Shown piece after piece: positions 46,816-55,168 of a DNA stretch of 64,000 nucleotides. The translations under genes were made by a program, and so were the position numbers. This DNA is from Methanosarcina barkeri 3 (GTDB lineage: Archaea; Halobacteriota; Methanosarcinia; Methanosarcinales; Methanosarcinaceae), in contig NZ_CP009517.1 of the NCBI RefSeq assembly GCF_000970305.1, forward strand, positions 2,914,001 through 2,978,000, in the 5' to 3' direction. Positions within the stretch are counted from its first letter, which is position 1; each line of letters begins with the position of its first letter. Under the pieces are notes generated by a model. That model was not told the DNA's origin. It was given only the letters and a program-made list of their open reading frames with translations, and did no database searches.

Positions 46816-47427
46816 TCAAACATTGTTTATGTCTTTTAGATAAATGGTATCGTGGCATAACTTATTAATTAAATTCCTGTCATGGCTTACGACCAGTACT
46901 CCGATGTTAAGTTCTTCGACAATGTTTAAAACAATGTTCCAGATTTGAGCTTGGGTAATGGCGTCTACCATTGTAGTAATTTCATCAGCTACTAAAAATC
47001 TGGTTTTAGGGCTTAGAGCTCTTGCAAGGGCAAACCTCTGGAGTTCTCCTCCGGAAAGCTCATTGGGCCATCGGTTAAGCCAGTTGTTTTTTATTCCAAA
47101 GGCCTCTAAAATATCCTGTGACACAAGATGTCCTTCGTTTAGAATATCTTTCATCCTCCATTTCGGATTTACAGCTTTTTCAGGATGTTGAAAGACAAGC
47201 TGGACGGGATTATAACCTTTTGATGGAATTTCGTTTCCATCCATACTTACTTTTCCCTGGTACTTAATCTCATAGCCTGCCAAAATTTTACATAGAGTTG
47301 ATTTACCGCTTCCACTGTCCCCTATGAGGCCCAGTACCTCCCCGCTGTGCAAAGAAATATTAACATCTTTTAAAACCGGATTATTTATTTTATACTCGAA
47401 ACTTATGTTCTCACCTTTAAGATGCAT
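46816..47427 (-). CDS. ABC importer ATPase (DppF/NikE type)
   Basis: A 203-residue ABC ATPase: Walker A LIGDSGSGKSTLC, Q-loop LVFQHPEKAVNPKWRM, signature ELSGGELQRFALARAL and Walker B FLVADEIT with the H-loop VSHDRN. It lacks the C-terminal oligopeptide-binding extension, so it is a short NikE-like form. It overlaps the upstream ATPase gene by 11 bases and is the last gene of the transporter operon. The second ATPase, two permeases and two binding proteins lie upstream. Cargo is peptide or nickel by family; not resolved. Confidence 0.9.
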   Translation of the reverse strand: MHLKGENISFEYKINNPVLKDVNISLHSGEVLGLIGDSGSGKSTLCKILAGYEIKYQGKVSMDGNEIPSKGYNPVQLVFQHPEKAVNPKWRMKDILNEGHLVSQDILEAFGIKNNWLNRWPNELSGGELQRFALARALSPKTRFLVADEITTMVDAITQAQIWNIVLNIVEELNIGVLVVSHDRNLINKLCHDTIYLKDINNV

Positions 47428-48430
47428 TATTACACCTCACCACCCCTCCGTTGACCTGTTTCAATTGAGGAATTCCCCTGGAACATATAGCTTTCTTTTT
47501 GGAACATCTGTCATAAAAGATACATCCGTCAATGACTTCATCCTGCATCGGTTGATGGCCTTTGATTGCCTGAAACTTATTCTGGGGAAGAGCATTCCAG
47601 AGTGCACGGGTATACGGGTGCCTCAGGTTTTCACCATTGTTTTTAAAGTCTTCAACATTCGCTACTTCCAGAACCGTACCTGCGTAAAATACTGCGATTT
47701 TATGGGAGATTTTTAGTGCAGCCTCGATATCGTGAGTTATGAGTATCACTGCACACCCCTTATCTGCCATGTCTTTGAAGTAACTCAGGGTCTCATTCAA
47801 AGTTTTATCATCTAAGCCAGGGGTTGGTTCATCTGCAATTATGAGTTTTGAAGAGCTTATTACGGCAGTGGAGACCAGAACTCTTCTGGTCATTCCTCCT
47901 GATAGCTCATGAGGAAGCATTCCTTCTACTTCGGGTTTTAAACCGTACCTCTGAAAAACTTCTCCCTGAAGTTTCTTCATTAAACCCTCTTTTTCCTTTT
48001 CAACACTTCCTATTACCTGATTCGAGATTTTCATTAAAGGGTCAAGATAGGTTATAGCTTGCGGGATCAGGGCTATTTCTTTGCCTCTCAGTTCTTCTTT
48101 TCTTTCCTGGGTAAGTTTTTTACCATCATATTCCATCTTACCATCCAGTTTTGCATTCAAAGGCAAAATTCCTAAAATCGCATGAGCCAGAAGACTTTTA
48201 CCCGATCCGCTTGACCCTACGATAGCTAAAATTTCACCTTTATAAGCCTGGATACTCAAGTTAGAAATTACTTTCAGCTCAGTCTGCCTGAGTCCTGACA
48301 TATATTGAGTGAACGAAAGTGAAAGATCTTCGACTGTCAACAGAGCTTCATTTTTTTTCCGTTCTCTAGCAACTGCTTCAAGTCCAGTGGATAACTCTTT
48401 TTTAGGGTTTATTTCAGCTTTACTTCCCAC
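47417..48430 (-). CDS. ABC importer ATPase (DppD/NikD type)
   Basis: A 337-residue ABC ATPase with Walker A IVGSSGSGKSLLAH, signature ELSGGMTRRVLVS, Walker B LIIADEPTPGLD and H-loop LITHDIEA. The last 60 residues are the Opp/Dpp C-terminal extension (YTRALWNALPQ; GCIFYDRCSKKKAICSRG, with cysteines that may bind an Fe-S cluster in this class). The first 30 residues are charged and not conserved; a later start is possible. It overlaps the DppF-type gene. A 16-base tandem repeat separates it from the permease upstream. Confidence 0.9.
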   Translation of the reverse strand: MGSKAEINPKKELSTGLEAVARERKKNEALLTVEDLSLSFTQYMSGLRQTELKVISNLSIQAYKGEILAIVGSSGSGKSLLAHAILGILPLNAKLDGKMEYDGKKLTQERKEELRGKEIALIPQAITYLDPLMKISNQVIGSVEKEKEGLMKKLQGEVFQRYGLKPEVEGMLPHELSGGMTRRVLVSTAVISSSKLIIADEPTPGLDDKTLNETLSYFKDMADKGCAVILITHDIEAALKISHKIAVFYAGTVLEVANVEDFKNNGENLRHPYTRALWNALPQNKFQAIKGHQPMQDEVIDGCIFYDRCSKKKAICSRGIPQLKQVNGGVVRCNNAS

Positions 48431-48468
48431 ACTTCACACTCTCCAGATATAGATTTAACATATTTTTG

Positions 48469-48580
48469 TCCAGTACACTTTTTATCCAGTACGTTTCTAA
48501 TCCAGTACGTTTCTAATCCAGTACGTTTCTAATCCAGTACATTTCTAATCAAGTACACCTCTAGGTCAGCACCATTTTTT
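48469..48580. repeat. 16-bp tandem repeat inside the ABC operon
   Basis: Four near-exact units TCCAGTACGTTTCTAA (48485-48548) with degenerate flanking units. It lies in the 186-base gap between the permease and the ATPase genes. Confidence 0.85.
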
Positions 48581-48616
48581 ATCCAGCATATTTCCAGTCT
48601 AATAACGGAAGAAAAA

Positions 48617-49474
48617 TTATTCATGAGCAATTTTCGGATTTATCAACTTTCCTAAGTTTTCTCCAATCATATCAAATGCCAGGACTACAATTAACAGGGA
48701 TAATCCAGGGAAAAACGCAAGCCACCAGTATCCTGCTGAAAGGTACCTCATAGATTCGGAAAGAATTATGCCGATTGCCGGTTCATGTGGTGAAAGCCCG
48801 AATCCCAGGAATGTGACTGAAGCTTCGTGTAAAATCGCATGTGGAAACATTAAAATTGTGCCCAAAAGTATCTGGGGGACCAGATGAGGTAGAATGTGTC
48901 TTGTAGCTATCCACCATTTTGACCTGCCAAGATTCCTGGAGATATGAATATATTCCTGGGTTTTCAACTGCTTGGTTTCTGCTCTTACGACCCTTGTTAA
49001 GCTCGGCCAATGCGTTAATGCAACTCCGGTGATAACTCCTGCTGCTCCCCCTCCGATTCCTATGGAAATAAGAACTATTAAAAGCAGATGAGGAATTGAA
49101 AGAAAGAGGTCTACTAACCACGACACAAAGGAGTCTGCAGTTTTTCCCGCACTTGAAAGTAATCCCAGAATTACGGTCAATAGAGTGCTAATTGTGGAAG
49201 CGAGCCCTCCAACCAATATACTTAGACCCAGTCCTTCCAGAGTCCTTATAAACATGTCTCTTCCCATCCAGTCCGTTCCGAACGGATGTTCCAGAGAAGG
49301 GGCAAGGTTTTTAGAGCCGAAATTTGTCTGTAGCGGTTCCTCACCTAAAAACACGCTGGAAACCACAATTGCAAGCAATAAAAGTGAAGTGGAACCTATT
49401 ACCAGAAGCGTTTTCTGCCTGAGGTTTAATCCTCCGAATAGTCCCCTGTTAACTGTCACAACAGCAGTACTCAT
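48617..49474 (-). CDS. ABC importer permease (DppC/NikC type)
   Basis: A 285-residue permease with six transmembrane segments. The first spans about residues 23-46; the conserved N-terminal HPFGTDWMGRDMFIRTLEGL is the OppC/DppC signature, and the EAA loop lies at the residues SVTFLGFGLSPHEPAIG. It overlaps the upstream permease gene by 4 bases (ATGA), indicating coupled translation. Together they form the membrane channel of the importer. Confidence 0.93.
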   Translation of the reverse strand: MSTAVVTVNRGLFGGLNLRQKTLLVIGSTSLLLLAIVVSSVFLGEEPLQTNFGSKNLAPSLEHPFGTDWMGRDMFIRTLEGLGLSILVGGLASTISTLLTVILGLLSSAGKTADSFVSWLVDLFLSIPHLLLIVLISIGIGGGAAGVITGVALTHWPSLTRVVRAETKQLKTQEYIHISRNLGRSKWWIATRHILPHLVPQILLGTILMFPHAILHEASVTFLGFGLSPHEPAIGIILSESMRYLSAGYWWLAFFPGLSLLIVVLAFDMIGENLGKLINPKIAHE

Positions 49475-50463
49475 ACCAATGCCTCCTGTTGTTTTATCCT
49501 GGGGTCAATAAATTCATAGATAATATCAGCAATCAGGTTTCCAAAGAAAACAAATAAAGTACTGAAGATGACTATTCCCAAAAGCAGCGGTACATCGGAT
49601 TTCAATCCTGCTGATACTGCAGTCTGTCCGATTCCGGGATACGAGAATACCTGTTCAACAAGGACTGTGCCTCCGAACAATTCACTGAACCCTAAAAACT
49701 GCAGAGTAATGGCCGGAAGTGCAACGTTTCGAACTCCATGCCTCAAAATCAGATCCAGCCCTTTTTCACCTCTTGCTTTTGCAAATAAGACATAATCACT
49801 GGATAGAACTTCGATTAATTTTTCTCGAGTGAACATTGTAATTTTGGCAATGTCTAATAAACTCAAAGTTATCGCAGGGAGAATTAAACGCTTAAGCCAA
49901 TCAAAAAACGTCACATTGTCGGCTGTAACCCCTATAGGTACACTTAATCCTATTGGGAACCAGCCCAGATATACCGAAAACACTATCAAAAGCAGCAGTG
50001 CTAGCCAGAACGTAGGTGCAGCAGCCAGAGCATAACAATAAGTTTTTATTGCCTTATCAACCCACGTACCTTGATTCGCGCCCGCTATAATTCCTAAAGC
50101 AAACCCCAGAATTCCTGAAAGCAGCCAGGAAATCCCCATCAGGATTAGAGAAGCTGTAAATCGTTCTTCAATGACGTCAATAACTGGAGTTCTATAAATT
50201 AGAGAAGTCCCAAAGTCTCCTTTAAGAATATCTCCGGCCCAGTTGAGGAATTTTTCCTGTGGAGGAGTGTTAACCCCCCAGTACGCTTCAAGTTTAGCTT
50301 TGTGCTCTGCGGTTACTGGCATCTCCCCAATATAGGCTCTAACGGGATCTATAGGCGAATACTGGATAAGCATGAAACTTGCAAAACAAACTATAATCAA
50401 AAGGCTTGTCAACCTGAGTGCCTTTTTTCCGATGAAACTCGCTATTTTTTCATTGTTTGACAC
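49471..50463 (-). CDS. ABC importer permease (DppB/NikB type)
   Basis: A 330-residue permease with six transmembrane segments: residues 14-32 anchor, then a large external loop with MLIQYSPIDPVRAYIGEMPV, and further segments. The EAA-type cytoplasmic loop is YVLFARAKGE-like (DYVLFAKARGEKGLDLILRH). Overlaps the partner permease. The binding-protein gene lies 262 bases upstream. Confidence 0.93.
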   Translation of the reverse strand: MSNNEKIASFIGKKALRLTSLLIIVCFASFMLIQYSPIDPVRAYIGEMPVTAEHKAKLEAYWGVNTPPQEKFLNWAGDILKGDFGTSLIYRTPVIDVIEERFTASLILMGISWLLSGILGFALGIIAGANQGTWVDKAIKTYCYALAAAPTFWLALLLLIVFSVYLGWFPIGLSVPIGVTADNVTFFDWLKRLILPAITLSLLDIAKITMFTREKLIEVLSSDYVLFAKARGEKGLDLILRHGVRNVALPAITLQFLGFSELFGGTVLVEQVFSYPGIGQTAVSAGLKSDVPLLLGIVIFSTLFVFFGNLIADIIYEFIDPRIKQQEALV

Positions 50464-50725: not shown

Positions 50726-52438
50726 TCACTTGGAAGTCGAGTTTGCTGTGTCTACTCTTTTCCACTCATAGATATTTCCTAAAACATCTGCTCCTGCGTT
50801 TCTTTGCGGAGTACCAATATCCAGGGTTTCATCTGCCATGTAGAGGTAATCAATTGTTACCAGCCATAACCAGGTAGCATCTCCTGCTGGCCCAAAACCG
50901 GTACTTCCGTCATATGCAGCTAACTTCCAGTATTTTGTAGCCTGGTCCTGATCTGTGGACCTCAGAGCTGTTTCCAGATATCCGTCTACAATAGAATTAT
51001 TATAAAGGCCAGGGTTCCTGTAGGTATCATCAGCCTCTTTGCTGTGGTACTGCTGGTAGAGATTAAAGGTATCTATACTGCTGTAAGCGTATAATACAGC
51101 TGAACTATACTGGTTAGCGTAGATTTCGTCCCAACTTGCTCCTACAAGGTCTATTTTTATTCCTAATTGTTTAGCCTGTTCGCTTACAGCTACTGATAGA
51201 GCTTGCCTTGTCTGGTCAGTAGCAGAGTAGTATAACTTAAATTCGGCTTCAGTTCCGTTCTTTTCCCGAATTCCATCACCGTCGGTGTCTTTCCAGCCTG
51301 CGTTTTCCAGTATTTTTTGGGCTTCCTCGGGATTTGAATCGTTAATTTTCGCTTCAGGGTTCCCGAAATCCCGCTGGTCTACTCCGGTATATTCTACGGC
51401 TCCTTTTCCGTATATGACTCCGTCAAGCAGGGCTTTTCTGTCGATACCAATGTTTAAGGCTTTTCGAATTGTTATGTCTGCTGTGACATTATTGCCGATT
51501 GGGTCTCCCTGAAGGCTTTTTTTGCCTGTGTTATACTGCATAGGGAAGGATAGTCCCTGAGCCCTTGCTGCCGGAAGATCTACTAACTTATACCCATCTA
51601 CAGTCTGATTTGCATGGCTAATCTCAATTTCAGCTATGTCCACATCCCCGGATTTTACTGCTGCAAACGCAGTATCTTTATCCAAAAACAGCATGGTTAT
51701 TTTTTTGAAATATGGCTTTTTTCCATAGTAATTTTCATTTAATTCCAAGATTGCCTGCTGCCCCTTGTCCCACTCTACAAGTTTATAAGGCCCGGATCCT
51801 ATCGGATTGGTTCCGTAGGTTTCTTTTTTATATGCATGTTCCGGCACAATCCCAACGTATCTGAGTCTCCATATGAAACTGGACTGAGGCTCTTTCAGTT
51901 TGAATTCAACTGCAGTGTTGTTTACTGCAGTGGCTTTTTCGAGATTACTCATATCCAGTTCGGAGTTGCTTCCAATTGCGGTATTAAACGTAAATGCCAC
52001 ATCTTCTGCGGTTAAGTTTTTACCGTCCGTGAACCTGACATCATCTCTAATATGCACAGTCCAGGTATCACCATCCGAACTGACAGAGTAATTCGTAGCA
52101 AGATCGTTTATTATGCTTCCATTGTCAGCTGACTTAAAAAGAGTGCTCTGTATAAGTGGCTCAAAATTCACATGCCCGCACCCCCATCCTAGAAGAGGGT
52201 CAAATCCTGTTTCGGGCTCACCGGTATGCGAATTTACATTCACCACAAGTTCATCAGAGCCTTTAGAAGCTGGTTCATCCGAGTCCTCGGAAACGAGTTT
52301 ATCCGAGCTCCCTGAAATCGATCCATCAGAAACATGGGATGACAAGCTAATCGGATCGCCCATTGATGTAAAAATGAGGATAACCGATATGATTATGACT
52401 CCTGCCCCTATCAGTAGATATTGCTGATTTTTCTGAAT
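50726..52438 (-). CDS. ABC importer binding protein, family 5, with ATT start
   Basis: A family-5 binding protein (peptide/nickel type) of about 570 residues. Core motifs: TWTVHIRDDVRFTDGKNLTA, GSGPYKLVEWDKGQQAI and RKALNIGIDRKALLDGVIYG. The only ATG (52363) follows the membrane anchor. Upstream in frame, codons 52364-52438 read (I)QKNQQYLLIGAGVIIISVIL, an N-terminal signal-anchor, preceded by ATT at 52436-52438 with GAGGAGGT 7-8 bases before it; no ATG, GTG or TTG is in that part, and a stop lies at 52457. So ATT (Ile codon) is the likely start. There is no lipobox Cys. The Ser/Asp/Glu-rich spacer (residues 35-60) carries SDEPASKGSDE-type repeats. Confidence 0.88.
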   Translation of the reverse strand: MQKNQQYLLIGAGVIIISVILIFTSMGDPISLSSHVSDGSISGSSDKLVSEDSDEPASKGSDELVVNVNSHTGEPETGFDPLLGWGCGHVNFEPLIQSTLFKSADNGSIINDLATNYSVSSDGDTWTVHIRDDVRFTDGKNLTAEDVAFTFNTAIGSNSELDMSNLEKATAVNNTAVEFKLKEPQSSFIWRLRYVGIVPEHAYKKETYGTNPIGSGPYKLVEWDKGQQAILELNENYYGKKPYFKKITMLFLDKDTAFAAVKSGDVDIAEIEISHANQTVDGYKLVDLPAARAQGLSFPMQYNTGKKSLQGDPIGNNVTADITIRKALNIGIDRKALLDGVIYGKGAVEYTGVDQRDFGNPEAKINDSNPEEAQKILENAGWKDTDGDGIREKNGTEAEFKLYYSATDQTRQALSVAVSEQAKQLGIKIDLVGASWDEIYANQYSSAVLYAYSSIDTFNLYQQYHSKEADDTYRNPGLYNNSIVDGYLETALRSTDQDQATKYWKLAAYDGSTGFGPAGDATWLWLVTIDYLYMADETLDIGTPQRNAGADVLGNIYEWKRVDTANSTSK

Positions 52439-53107
52439 ATAGACACCTCCTCTATTTTACCAGAGTCCAGAACATTTAAGCAAAAATTGGATTGCCAAGT
52501 AAAGGTTTTTTAAATCTGTCCAGATGACCGGAATCTTATATTAAATAACATTTTCCTAATAAAAATATGATATAAAATATTACTTTTGTCAGTAAAGTTA
52601 AGATAACACAATTAAAACAATTTACTATAAATACATTCCGAAATTTATGTGTTACTAATTATTAGTATTAAGGAGTTTAGTAATACTAAATAAAAAAACT
52701 TTATGCGTTTTTTAAATCTGAAAATTATCGATGCATTGTGTAATGAAAAAGTATAATTTTAGCGACACTAAAAGATAGTTAAAAGTAGATAAATATGTTA
52801 AGATGAGACGATATTTAAGAATAATATATAAGAATATTATGTTTAAAAACATGAAAACATGGTAAAATATTAGAACATGTGCAAAATATGAAAAATGTGT
52901 AAAAAATAAAAATATGAGAATATGTGTAAAAAATAAAAATATGAGAATATGTGCAAAAAATAAAAACACAAATTTCAATTAAACTTTGCCAAAAAAGTAA
53001 CACTGAGGAATTTTGTACCCTCAGCTTAATTAAGAACTTTAAGGAACAGTTCTCAGCCTTGCTAAAAGACTTTCGTGACTGTTCTTCGTTGAAATCCAGA
53101 TTTCAGC
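52439..53107. other. Gene-free AT-rich stretch between the two binding-protein genes
   Basis: Contains imperfect 28-base repeats of AAAATATGAGAATATGTG (52880-52965). The 52363-52438 gene promoter should lie at its left end. The TTATAAAT-like motif at 52626 (reverse direction) is a candidate. No gene is seen. Confidence 0.5.
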
Positions 53108-54793
53108 TTAGTTTCCTGTGCGTTTCCACTCCAGGATATTACCGAAGATATTGGCACCGTGAGGCTGGATTTTGGGAGTTCCGATATCTATGTCCTCGTC
53201 CATAATGTACAGGTAATCAATAGTTGCAATCCAGAGCCATGTAGCATCTCCTTTTTCAGAAAATCCTGTTGTTCCATCCCAGGCAGCCAGCTGCCAGTTT
53301 TTATTGGCAGTGTCCTGATCAGTGCTGGTTATGGCTGTCCTTAGATAGTCATCCACGACCGAATTGTTGTACATTATTATATTGTTGTAGTTTGAAGGGT
53401 CGTAGCTTTTGCTGTAGTATTTCAGGTATAAGTCAGTTGGATCCAGTGTGCCAAAACCGAAAACTACAGGAGTTGAATGCGCCAGAGTGTCAATCTCATC
53501 CCAGCTCTTACCTTCAACTTTGATGTTTATTCCCAGTTTTTTAGCTTCCTCGCCCAATGCGACGGCTAATGCTTGCCTTTCCTGGGCACTTGAAGGATAC
53601 AGTAAGGTGAATTCCGCTTTCAACCCATTCTTTTCAAGAATACCGTCACCATCGGCATCTTTCCAGCCGCCGTCCGCTAAAATCTTCTTTGCTTCGTCTA
53701 CTTTTCCGTCTTCGAATATAGCTTCTTTATTGCCCCAGGGCAGTTTGTCAACTCCAGTAAATTCCTCTTCACCCTGCCCGTTTAACGCTCCATCGATTAA
53801 AGCCTGCCTGTCTATTCCGATATTCAGGGCTTTTCTTATCGCAGGATCGGAGGTTACATTATTCCCGATTGAGTAGCCATTTTCCGTTTTCTTTCCCGTA
53901 TCAGGCTGCATTGGGAAAGTTATTCCCCGAGCATCAATGGAACTGAGAGATACCATTTTCATTCCATCTACTTTCTGATTAGCATAGGAAGAAGGAATTT
54001 CAGCCAGGTCAACTTGCCCTGATTTGGCAGCAGCAAAAGCCGTGTCGGACTGCATAAAGAGTAAAGTTATTTTTTTGAAGTACGGCTTCTGACCATAATA
54101 GTCCGGATTTGCTTCAAAGATCGCCTGCTGGCCTTTATCCCATTCTACAAATCGATATGGGCCCGACCCGATCGGATGTTCTCCGTAAGTCTCATTATAA
54201 GCATGTTCAGGTACAATTCCGAGAGCTACAAGCTTGTGAATAAAAGTCGCCTGCGGATCATCTAATTTGAATTCAACCGTGTAGTTATCAAGTGCTACCG
54301 CATTTTTCAAAACTGAGAGGTCGACTCCACTCGAATTTGCCGCAGTATTAAATGTAAATGCCACATCTTTAGCCGTTAAAGGCACTCCGTCATGGAATTT
54401 AACATCGTCCCTTATTTTAACAGTCCAGGTCAACCCATCGTCACTAACAGAATAGTTTGTTGCCAAATCCGTAATAAGAGACCCATTACTGTCCTTTTTT
54501 AAAAGAGTACTTTGAACCAGCGGTTCACGACTATAACCCCATCCGGTAATTGGGTTAAAACCTGTTTCCGGCTCTCCGCCATGAGTTCCTACGGCTGCCA
54601 CCAGTTCATCCGAGCCCTGGGAAGTCGATTCATCCGAGTTTTCGGAAGTTAAATTATCCGAACCTCCGGAAACCGATCCATCCGACATCATGGAAGCCGA
54701 ATTTGCTGGCTCATTACTCGGCATAAAAGCAACAGCAGCCGCAATAATTATGGCTATTGCCCCTATTAAGATATATTGCTGATTTTTCTTAAT
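53108..54793 (-). CDS. ABC importer binding protein, family 5, second copy with ATT start
   Basis: A paralogue of the previous protein, about 561 residues: TWTVKIRDDVKFHDGVPLTA, GSGPYRFVEWDKGQQAIFEA and RKALNIGIDRQALIDGALNG. As in its sister, the first ATG (54724) lies after the anchor. Upstream in frame, (I)KKNQQYILIGAIAIIIAAAV is encoded, its first codon is ATT (54791-54793), and TAA is directly in front of it. AGGAGGAG ends 5 bases before ATT. No other start codon is available. Both copies share KNQQYxLIGA right after the ATT, so the codon is preserved between paralogues. Duplicate binding proteins may bring different cargo to the same permease. Confidence 0.88.
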   Translation of the reverse strand: MKKNQQYILIGAIAIIIAAAVAFMPSNEPANSASMMSDGSVSGGSDNLTSENSDESTSQGSDELVAAVGTHGGEPETGFNPITGWGYSREPLVQSTLLKKDSNGSLITDLATNYSVSDDGLTWTVKIRDDVKFHDGVPLTAKDVAFTFNTAANSSGVDLSVLKNAVALDNYTVEFKLDDPQATFIHKLVALGIVPEHAYNETYGEHPIGSGPYRFVEWDKGQQAIFEANPDYYGQKPYFKKITLLFMQSDTAFAAAKSGQVDLAEIPSSYANQKVDGMKMVSLSSIDARGITFPMQPDTGKKTENGYSIGNNVTSDPAIRKALNIGIDRQALIDGALNGQGEEEFTGVDKLPWGNKEAIFEDGKVDEAKKILADGGWKDADGDGILEKNGLKAEFTLLYPSSAQERQALAVALGEEAKKLGINIKVEGKSWDEIDTLAHSTPVVFGFGTLDPTDLYLKYYSKSYDPSNYNNIIMYNNSVVDDYLRTAITSTDQDTANKNWQLAAWDGTTGFSEKGDATWLWIATIDYLYIMDEDIDIGTPKIQPHGANIFGNILEWKRTGN

Positions 54794-55060
54794 TTAAACT
54801 CCTCCTTCCTCGTAGTTATATTAAATTATTGAAACAGTATTACCTAACAGTAGTGTTTTCAGTAATTTCAACCCAGTTAAATAACACTTTACTAAGAAAA
54901 CATAACAATATTGCAATACATTCTTTGTAAAAAATAAGACAAACAAGACTAATCTCGTTTTGTTATAAATACATTTCTAAATATATGTAACATCAATATA
55001 GTAAATTTATAAAATTAGATAATACAAAATAATATTTTTATTCATTTGTCAATTCTGGAT

Positions 55061-55168
55061 TGAATTTAATTTCTTAGTGAAGAAAAACGATTGAAACTCT
55101 CGTCAACCTTATCATGCTCGAGGGACATTTATTCGTGAGCAAGATCCAATAAAACAAGGATTTGAAAC
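55061..55168 (+). CRISPR. CRISPR remnant: degenerate repeat, spacer, and near-intact repeat
   Basis: The repeat at 55131-55168 (ATTCGTGAGCAAGATCCAAT then AAAACAAGGATTTGAAAC) equals the Methanosarcina-type repeat with one extra T. Upstream, a decayed repeat ends AAAACGATTGAAAC at 55097, leaving a 33-base spacer-like piece (55098-55130). All copies in 55-58 kb are in the same direction. The stretch 54794-55060 has no gene. Confidence 0.75.

Follow-up and report, generated by a model that had tools for sequence, protein, structure and literature searches.

Where do two tandem genes for ABC transporter binding proteins begin, when neither has an ATG, GTG or TTG codon ahead of the segment that encodes its membrane anchor? 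The genes lie in a window of 64,000 nucleotides (the whole stretch of DNA that was analysed) from a Methanosarcina genome whose complete chromosome measures 4,560,446 bases. An initial sequence-only reading of this DNA, made without database searches, placed both starts at ATT. Comparative evidence from orthologues and outgroups, described below, strongly supports the view that both genes start at AUU.

Two paralogous binding-protein genes with putative ATT starts

The features of the locus that bear on this question are as follows.

53108..54793, minus strand: binding protein P0002, upstream gene; 561 aa, SBP_bac_5, with YntA as its nearest solved relative
54791..54793, minus strand: ATT, putative start codon of P0002; ATT/ATC/ATA in orthologues, ATG in outgroups
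54801..54805, minus strand: GGAGG Shine-Dalgarno core of P0002, exactly 7 nt ahead of the ATT
50726..52438, minus strand: binding protein P0001, downstream gene; 570 aa, SBP_bac_5
52436..52438, minus strand: ATT, putative start codon of P0001; ATT/ATC/ATA in orthologues, ATG in outgroups
52446..52450, minus strand: GGAGG Shine-Dalgarno core of P0001, exactly 7 nt ahead of the ATT
50463-49471 and 49474-48617, minus strand: two permeases with canonical starts; NCBIfam Opp/Nik families, below equivalog cut-offs
48430-47417 and 47427-46816, minus strand: two ATPases with canonical starts; NCBIfam Opp/Nik families, below equivalog cut-offs

When the coordinates were re-read, the first in-frame ATG, GTG or TTG was found at 52363 in P0001 (codon 26) and at 54724 in P0002 (codon 24). 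Both positions lie beyond a hydrophobic stretch of 17 residues that starts at residue 8 and has a mean hydropathy of 2.9, in keeping with the original observation that no canonical start precedes the anchor. The strong Shine-Dalgarno sequence that had been placed 5-8 bases before each ATT has the same spacing in the two genes, and the TAA reported to abut the ATT of the upstream gene is found at 54794-54796 (minus strand). The shared N-terminus, first noticed as KNQQYxLIGA, reads KNQQY(L/I)LIGA within a common I(Q/K)KNQQY(L/I)LIGA. A pattern search for this motif in other proteins gave many scattered matches, often a recurring sequence, AAAAATCAACAGCAT.

P0001 and P0002 are paralogues with 61 % identity. 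They match SBP_bac_5 (PF00496) with 246.2 and 263.5 bits, respectively, against a Pfam gathering score of 32.4, and their scores with the NikA equivalog TIGR02294 (177.6 and 142.7 bits) are below the NCBIfam cut-off of 393. The closest protein of known structure is YntA of Yersinia pestis (PDB 4ofl, 406 bits), a member of the same family with full-length similarity over residues 72-559. By sequence similarity, then, the proteins are nearest to nickel-binding YntA, which goes beyond the generic binding proteins of the sequence-only reading. They differ from YntA in being encoded in two tandem copies and in having an anchor mostly without the lipobox cysteine, and nickel remains a putative ligand here. 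The permease and ATPase genes follow downstream of the pair, together spanning 46816..50463 on the minus strand. Elsewhere in this genome, the family-5 binding proteins that could be read, in a reading limited to six, have ATG before the signal.

Conservation of the AUH codon among orthologues

The gene or its paralogue is present in 24 of the 31 Methanosarcina genomes. We counted starts for both paralogues in Methanosarcina and its sister genus g4 (G034, G035), which gave 48 readable copies in 26 genomes. Alignment of orthologues, a check proposed along with the initial observation, places AUH (AUU, AUC or AUA) at the homologous codon in every one of these copies: 37 have ATT, ten ATC and one ATA, and ATG, GTG and TTG are absent (0/48). 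Among the 42 copies tabulated in full, GGAGG occupies positions -12 to -8 and the first two start positions are A and T without exception. The codon before the start is TAA, TAG or TGA in 20/48 copies (16/42 in the main table), which rules out in-frame reading from further upstream there. In the 42-copy table, variation in codons 2-7 (KKNQQY) is mostly third-position and synonymous, which argues that coding begins at the AUH codon. The AUU starts postulated from the window alone are borne out by this comparison, in which homology and protein conservation begin at AUH, neither the Shine-Dalgarno core nor the first two bases of the codon vary, stops frequently precede it, and outgroups have ATG at the same place.

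Outgroups and direction of change

In Methanosarcinaceae outside Methanosarcina and g4, among them Methanolobus, Methanomethylovorans and Methanococcoides, ATG is found at the corresponding place in 14/14 copies, mostly preceding a lipoprotein signal. The Methanolobus leader, GAGGAGTTTGTATGAAAAAG, aligns base for base with the Methanosarcina pattern, GGAGGAGTTNNNATHAAGAAA. The three Methanobacteriales relatives examined also start with ATG. In a tree of the 42 proteins, the two paralogues form separate halves, each with full support, and g4 nests within one of the two. Since the outgroups have ATG and g4 falls within one half of the paralogue tree, AUG was most simply lost before both the duplication and the split of the genus: the change from AUG to AUH would have taken place in an ancestor that preceded the duplication and the divergence of Methanosarcina from its sister genus. 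No reversion to AUG was seen among the 48 readable copies. The sequence-only reading can thus be extended, as the AUH state appears to be ancestral to the genus, to include AUC and AUA, and to be older than the gene duplication. The position, age and conservation of the AUH start can be regarded as established by this comparison, and initiation at AUH, together with that age and conservation, is highly probable.

The anchors themselves also vary. A lipobox (SGC) is found in most outgroup copies; the cysteine is absent from most Methanosarcina copies, which have the hydrophobic anchor only (L041-L063), and SGC is kept in some Methanosarcina paralogues.

A possible role for the unusual start

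We propose that the ordinary initiator Met-tRNA starts both genes at AUH, which is AUU here, presumably with methionine. The perfect Shine-Dalgarno sequence seven bases upstream would position the ribosome, and the AU of the codon would pair with the anticodon, leaving a mismatch at the third base. With initiator Met-tRNA the same protein is made from AUG or AUH, so the codon acts only through how often or when initiation succeeds. A poor start codon may in this way lower or regulate the output of binding protein. That the AUH start limits expression, as was suggested at the outset, is plausible.

The discriminating agent would most likely be the archaeal fidelity factor aIF1, by analogy with other systems. 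In Sulfolobus, aIF1 favours discrimination against non-canonical starts (PMC6237735). We looked for an extra or unusual aIF1 in Methanosarcina and found one unremarkable copy, the same number that relatives have, so its role is argued by analogy only. The regulatory step taken by itself is a tentative proposal, drawn from bacterial analogues. With the same caution, it may be that the start is kept non-canonical on purpose throughout the genus, so that synthesis of nickel-uptake binding proteins depends on initiation fidelity, that is, on the state of aIF1 or of the ribosome pool.

Constraint on the start codon and other AUH starts

The main rival to this proposal accepts the same AUH start and denies the regulatory step alone: a chance change from AUG to AUH was fixed, the strong Shine-Dalgarno sequence compensates for it, and the codon now drifts without a regulatory role. 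We consider this possible, if somewhat doubtful, and two kinds of evidence bear on it, the substitution pattern at the start and the behaviour of other AUH starts in the genome.

By parsimony on the 42-copy tree, the Shine-Dalgarno core GGAGG and the A and T of the start have undergone no change. The third start base has changed five times, always within A, C and T; the three bases before the start have changed 9-10 times each, and conserved fourfold sites 8.7 times on average. Of these fourfold sites, 9/58 are likewise without G. We simulated the third start base on the tree with rates fitted to the fourfold sites and 42 tips. A neutral third base left all tips without G with P ~0.15; taken by itself, the lack of G at this base does not differ significantly from what neutral drift would give. 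With a preference for AUG (equilibrium frequency 80 %) and the neutral rate, G-free tips were obtained in 0/600 runs. This rules out an ordinary start that prefers AUG, except one that evolves far more slowly than a neutral site, and the near-zero probability of the observed pattern under such a preference speaks against mere tolerance of AUH.

We also surveyed 1.264 Mb (28 %) of the same genome, comprising 659 coding frames, for ATT, ATC or ATA behind GGAGG where the first canonical start lies at least 15 codons further on and orthologues confirm the place. Four such frames were found, two of which are the P0001 and P0002 genes, so that the arrangement seen in this pair goes beyond chance. 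AUH starts seem to be tolerated elsewhere in the genome, as the rival explanation would have it: within the surveyed part, a universal-stress-protein gene (G000:C1:3018975, outside the window; L250-L262) and an HD-domain gene (G000:C1:1065795, outside the window; L270-L272) have ATA where relatives have ATG. At the homologous position, the stress-protein gene has ATA in six species and ATG in seven others, and the HD-domain gene has ATA in two and ATG in one. There, however, AUH alternates with ATG, whereas the binding-protein genes never do so, with no ATG among 48 copies of two paralogues.

Several details of the survey deserve mention in their own right. The ATA/ATG set of the universal-stress-protein gene constitutes a natural series for AUA initiation. 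In the HD-domain gene, ATA TCT stands against ATG TAT in a close relative, both behind GGAGGTCTAACTC, and its leader is adjoined by a near-duplicate of that leader. At G000:C1:2563066 (outside the window), GGAGGAATGAAAAATAAAAATAATTAGG, the ATG frame stops after six codons and the signal-peptide frame continues in another frame, perhaps reflecting a frameshift in the A-rich start region.

Alternative readings of the conserved codon

Initiation at AUH has also to be weighed against readings in which the codon is not a start at all. The third base varies among isoleucine codons only, as selection for isoleucine would yield, and the codon could then be read as isoleucine in a longer or differently started product, through frameshifting, stop read-through or RNA processing. 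We regard this as very improbable: the preceding codon varies freely and is often a stop, the upstream gene has no out-of-frame ATG, GTG or TTG at useful spacing between the Shine-Dalgarno sequence and the codon, and outgroups carry ATG exactly at that codon. It is hardly credible that the proteins start without an anchor at the ATG codons inside the frames (52363 and 54724); these are the first canonical codons and automatic annotation would pick them, but they have no strong Shine-Dalgarno sequence and orthologues do not keep their place, whereas every copy conserves the protein sequence of the anchor encoded upstream of them. An error of sequencing or assembly at the start, for which no support was found, is refuted by the orthologues: 26 genomes, of which several are complete, share this state, and the probability of an error is negligible.

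Leaders of the two genes

Each binding-protein gene is preceded, ~170-215 bases before its start codon, by a promoter-like element.

54964..54988, minus strand: 25-base promoter-like element ACATATATTTAGAAATGTATTTATA before P0002, including a TATA-box-like TTTATA
52626..52650, minus strand: 25-base promoter-like element ACATAAATTTCGGAATGTATTTATA before P0001

Within three mismatches, the element has only two matches genome-wide, one ahead of each binding-protein gene. It contains ACAT and ATGT halves beside the TATA box (ACATANATTTNGRAATGTATTTATA) and is possibly an operator. The 101-nt regions around the two starts fold no better than shuffled sequences (z -0.28 and 0.27), giving no sign of occlusion of the start codons by RNA structure, and no riboswitch or other known RNA was found in the leaders with Rfam. 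Two further arrangements were considered and rejected. Reading the leader in the window by eye revealed no candidate for a short upstream ORF with reinitiation, and an upstream in-frame start is ruled out by the stop codon directly before the start in the copies that have one. The only Rfam match lies further upstream of the gene pair, at 55131-55168 on the plus strand, where one CRISPR repeat of family DR7 scores 42.5 bits.

Proteomic evidence

In a published proteome of M. barkeri MS, the adjacent OppA pair MSBRM_0219/0220 was detected and found to be strongly and similarly regulated, and growth conditions changed the abundances of such transporters by a factor of more than 130 (PMC10846266). 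In genome G003, family-5 genes stand next to each other at exactly two places, one pair at 256-260 kb and the other at 1.18 Mb. With ribosomal protein L13 (MSBRM_0477) at 593 kb in this genome, interpolation puts MSBRM_0219/0220 at ~270 kb and 0900/0901 at ~1.12 Mb. The published proteome probably contains both products, MSBRM_0219/0220 being linked to them by gene position and not by accession, in a paper that does not give N-termini. Such detection speaks for live genes, and says nothing of the start position. In M. mazei Ribo-seq, the part of the report that deals with small ORFs gives their starts only as ATG, TTG, GTG and CTG (PMC11456600).

Comparison with bacterial infC and sigR

The initial observation had invoked AUU initiation of bacterial infC, and as a way of working the comparison is apt. 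The gene infC, which encodes initiation factor IF3, starts with ATT in E. coli and with ATC in Streptomyces, and IF3 represses the non-canonical starts of infC and sigR in bacteria (PMC5472188). In common with the binding-protein genes, infC has an AUU or AUC start whose third base depends on the lineage and a non-canonical codon kept instead of AUG (PMC5472188). The difference is that infC is autoregulated and its product is itself the fidelity factor, whereas the genes described here encode a transport protein in an archaeon that has aIF1, not IF3.

Streptomyces sigR starts with GTC, or GTT in 2/34 species, behind AGGAGGTG, and in other genera there is no evidence of this odd start (PMC5472188). 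It resembles the present genes in its extended Shine-Dalgarno sequence and in a genus-wide non-canonical start with a varying third base (PMC5472188). It differs in being bacterial and in that its repression by IF3 was demonstrated by experiment, whereas the start described here is known from sequence alone. Three traits that mark starts of the infC and sigR kind are found here as well: a start other than ATG, GTG or TTG in 48/48 copies (against outgroup ATG in 14/14), a Shine-Dalgarno sequence at normal spacing in 42/42, and, according to the tree and parsimony, maintenance of the start across the genus despite sequence divergence.

Implications for gene control in Methanosarcina

Our literature search found no archaeal case of infC/sigR-type control, and a review of archaeal recoding states that elongation and termination were the only stages for which non-canonical events had been demonstrated (PMC8211752). 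Gene finders limited to ATG, GTG and TTG would place the starts of these proteins beyond the anchor, so that membrane attachment would be lost from the annotation, and other Methanosarcina genes may be misannotated likewise. The AUH start of the two paralogues is ancient and genus-wide, and the genus includes M. acetivorans and M. mazei, which have working genetics and in which one base change would suffice to probe initiation fidelity as a means of archaeal control. If the proposal is true, it would add to archaeal gene control a layer of the kind that infC and sigR show in bacteria.
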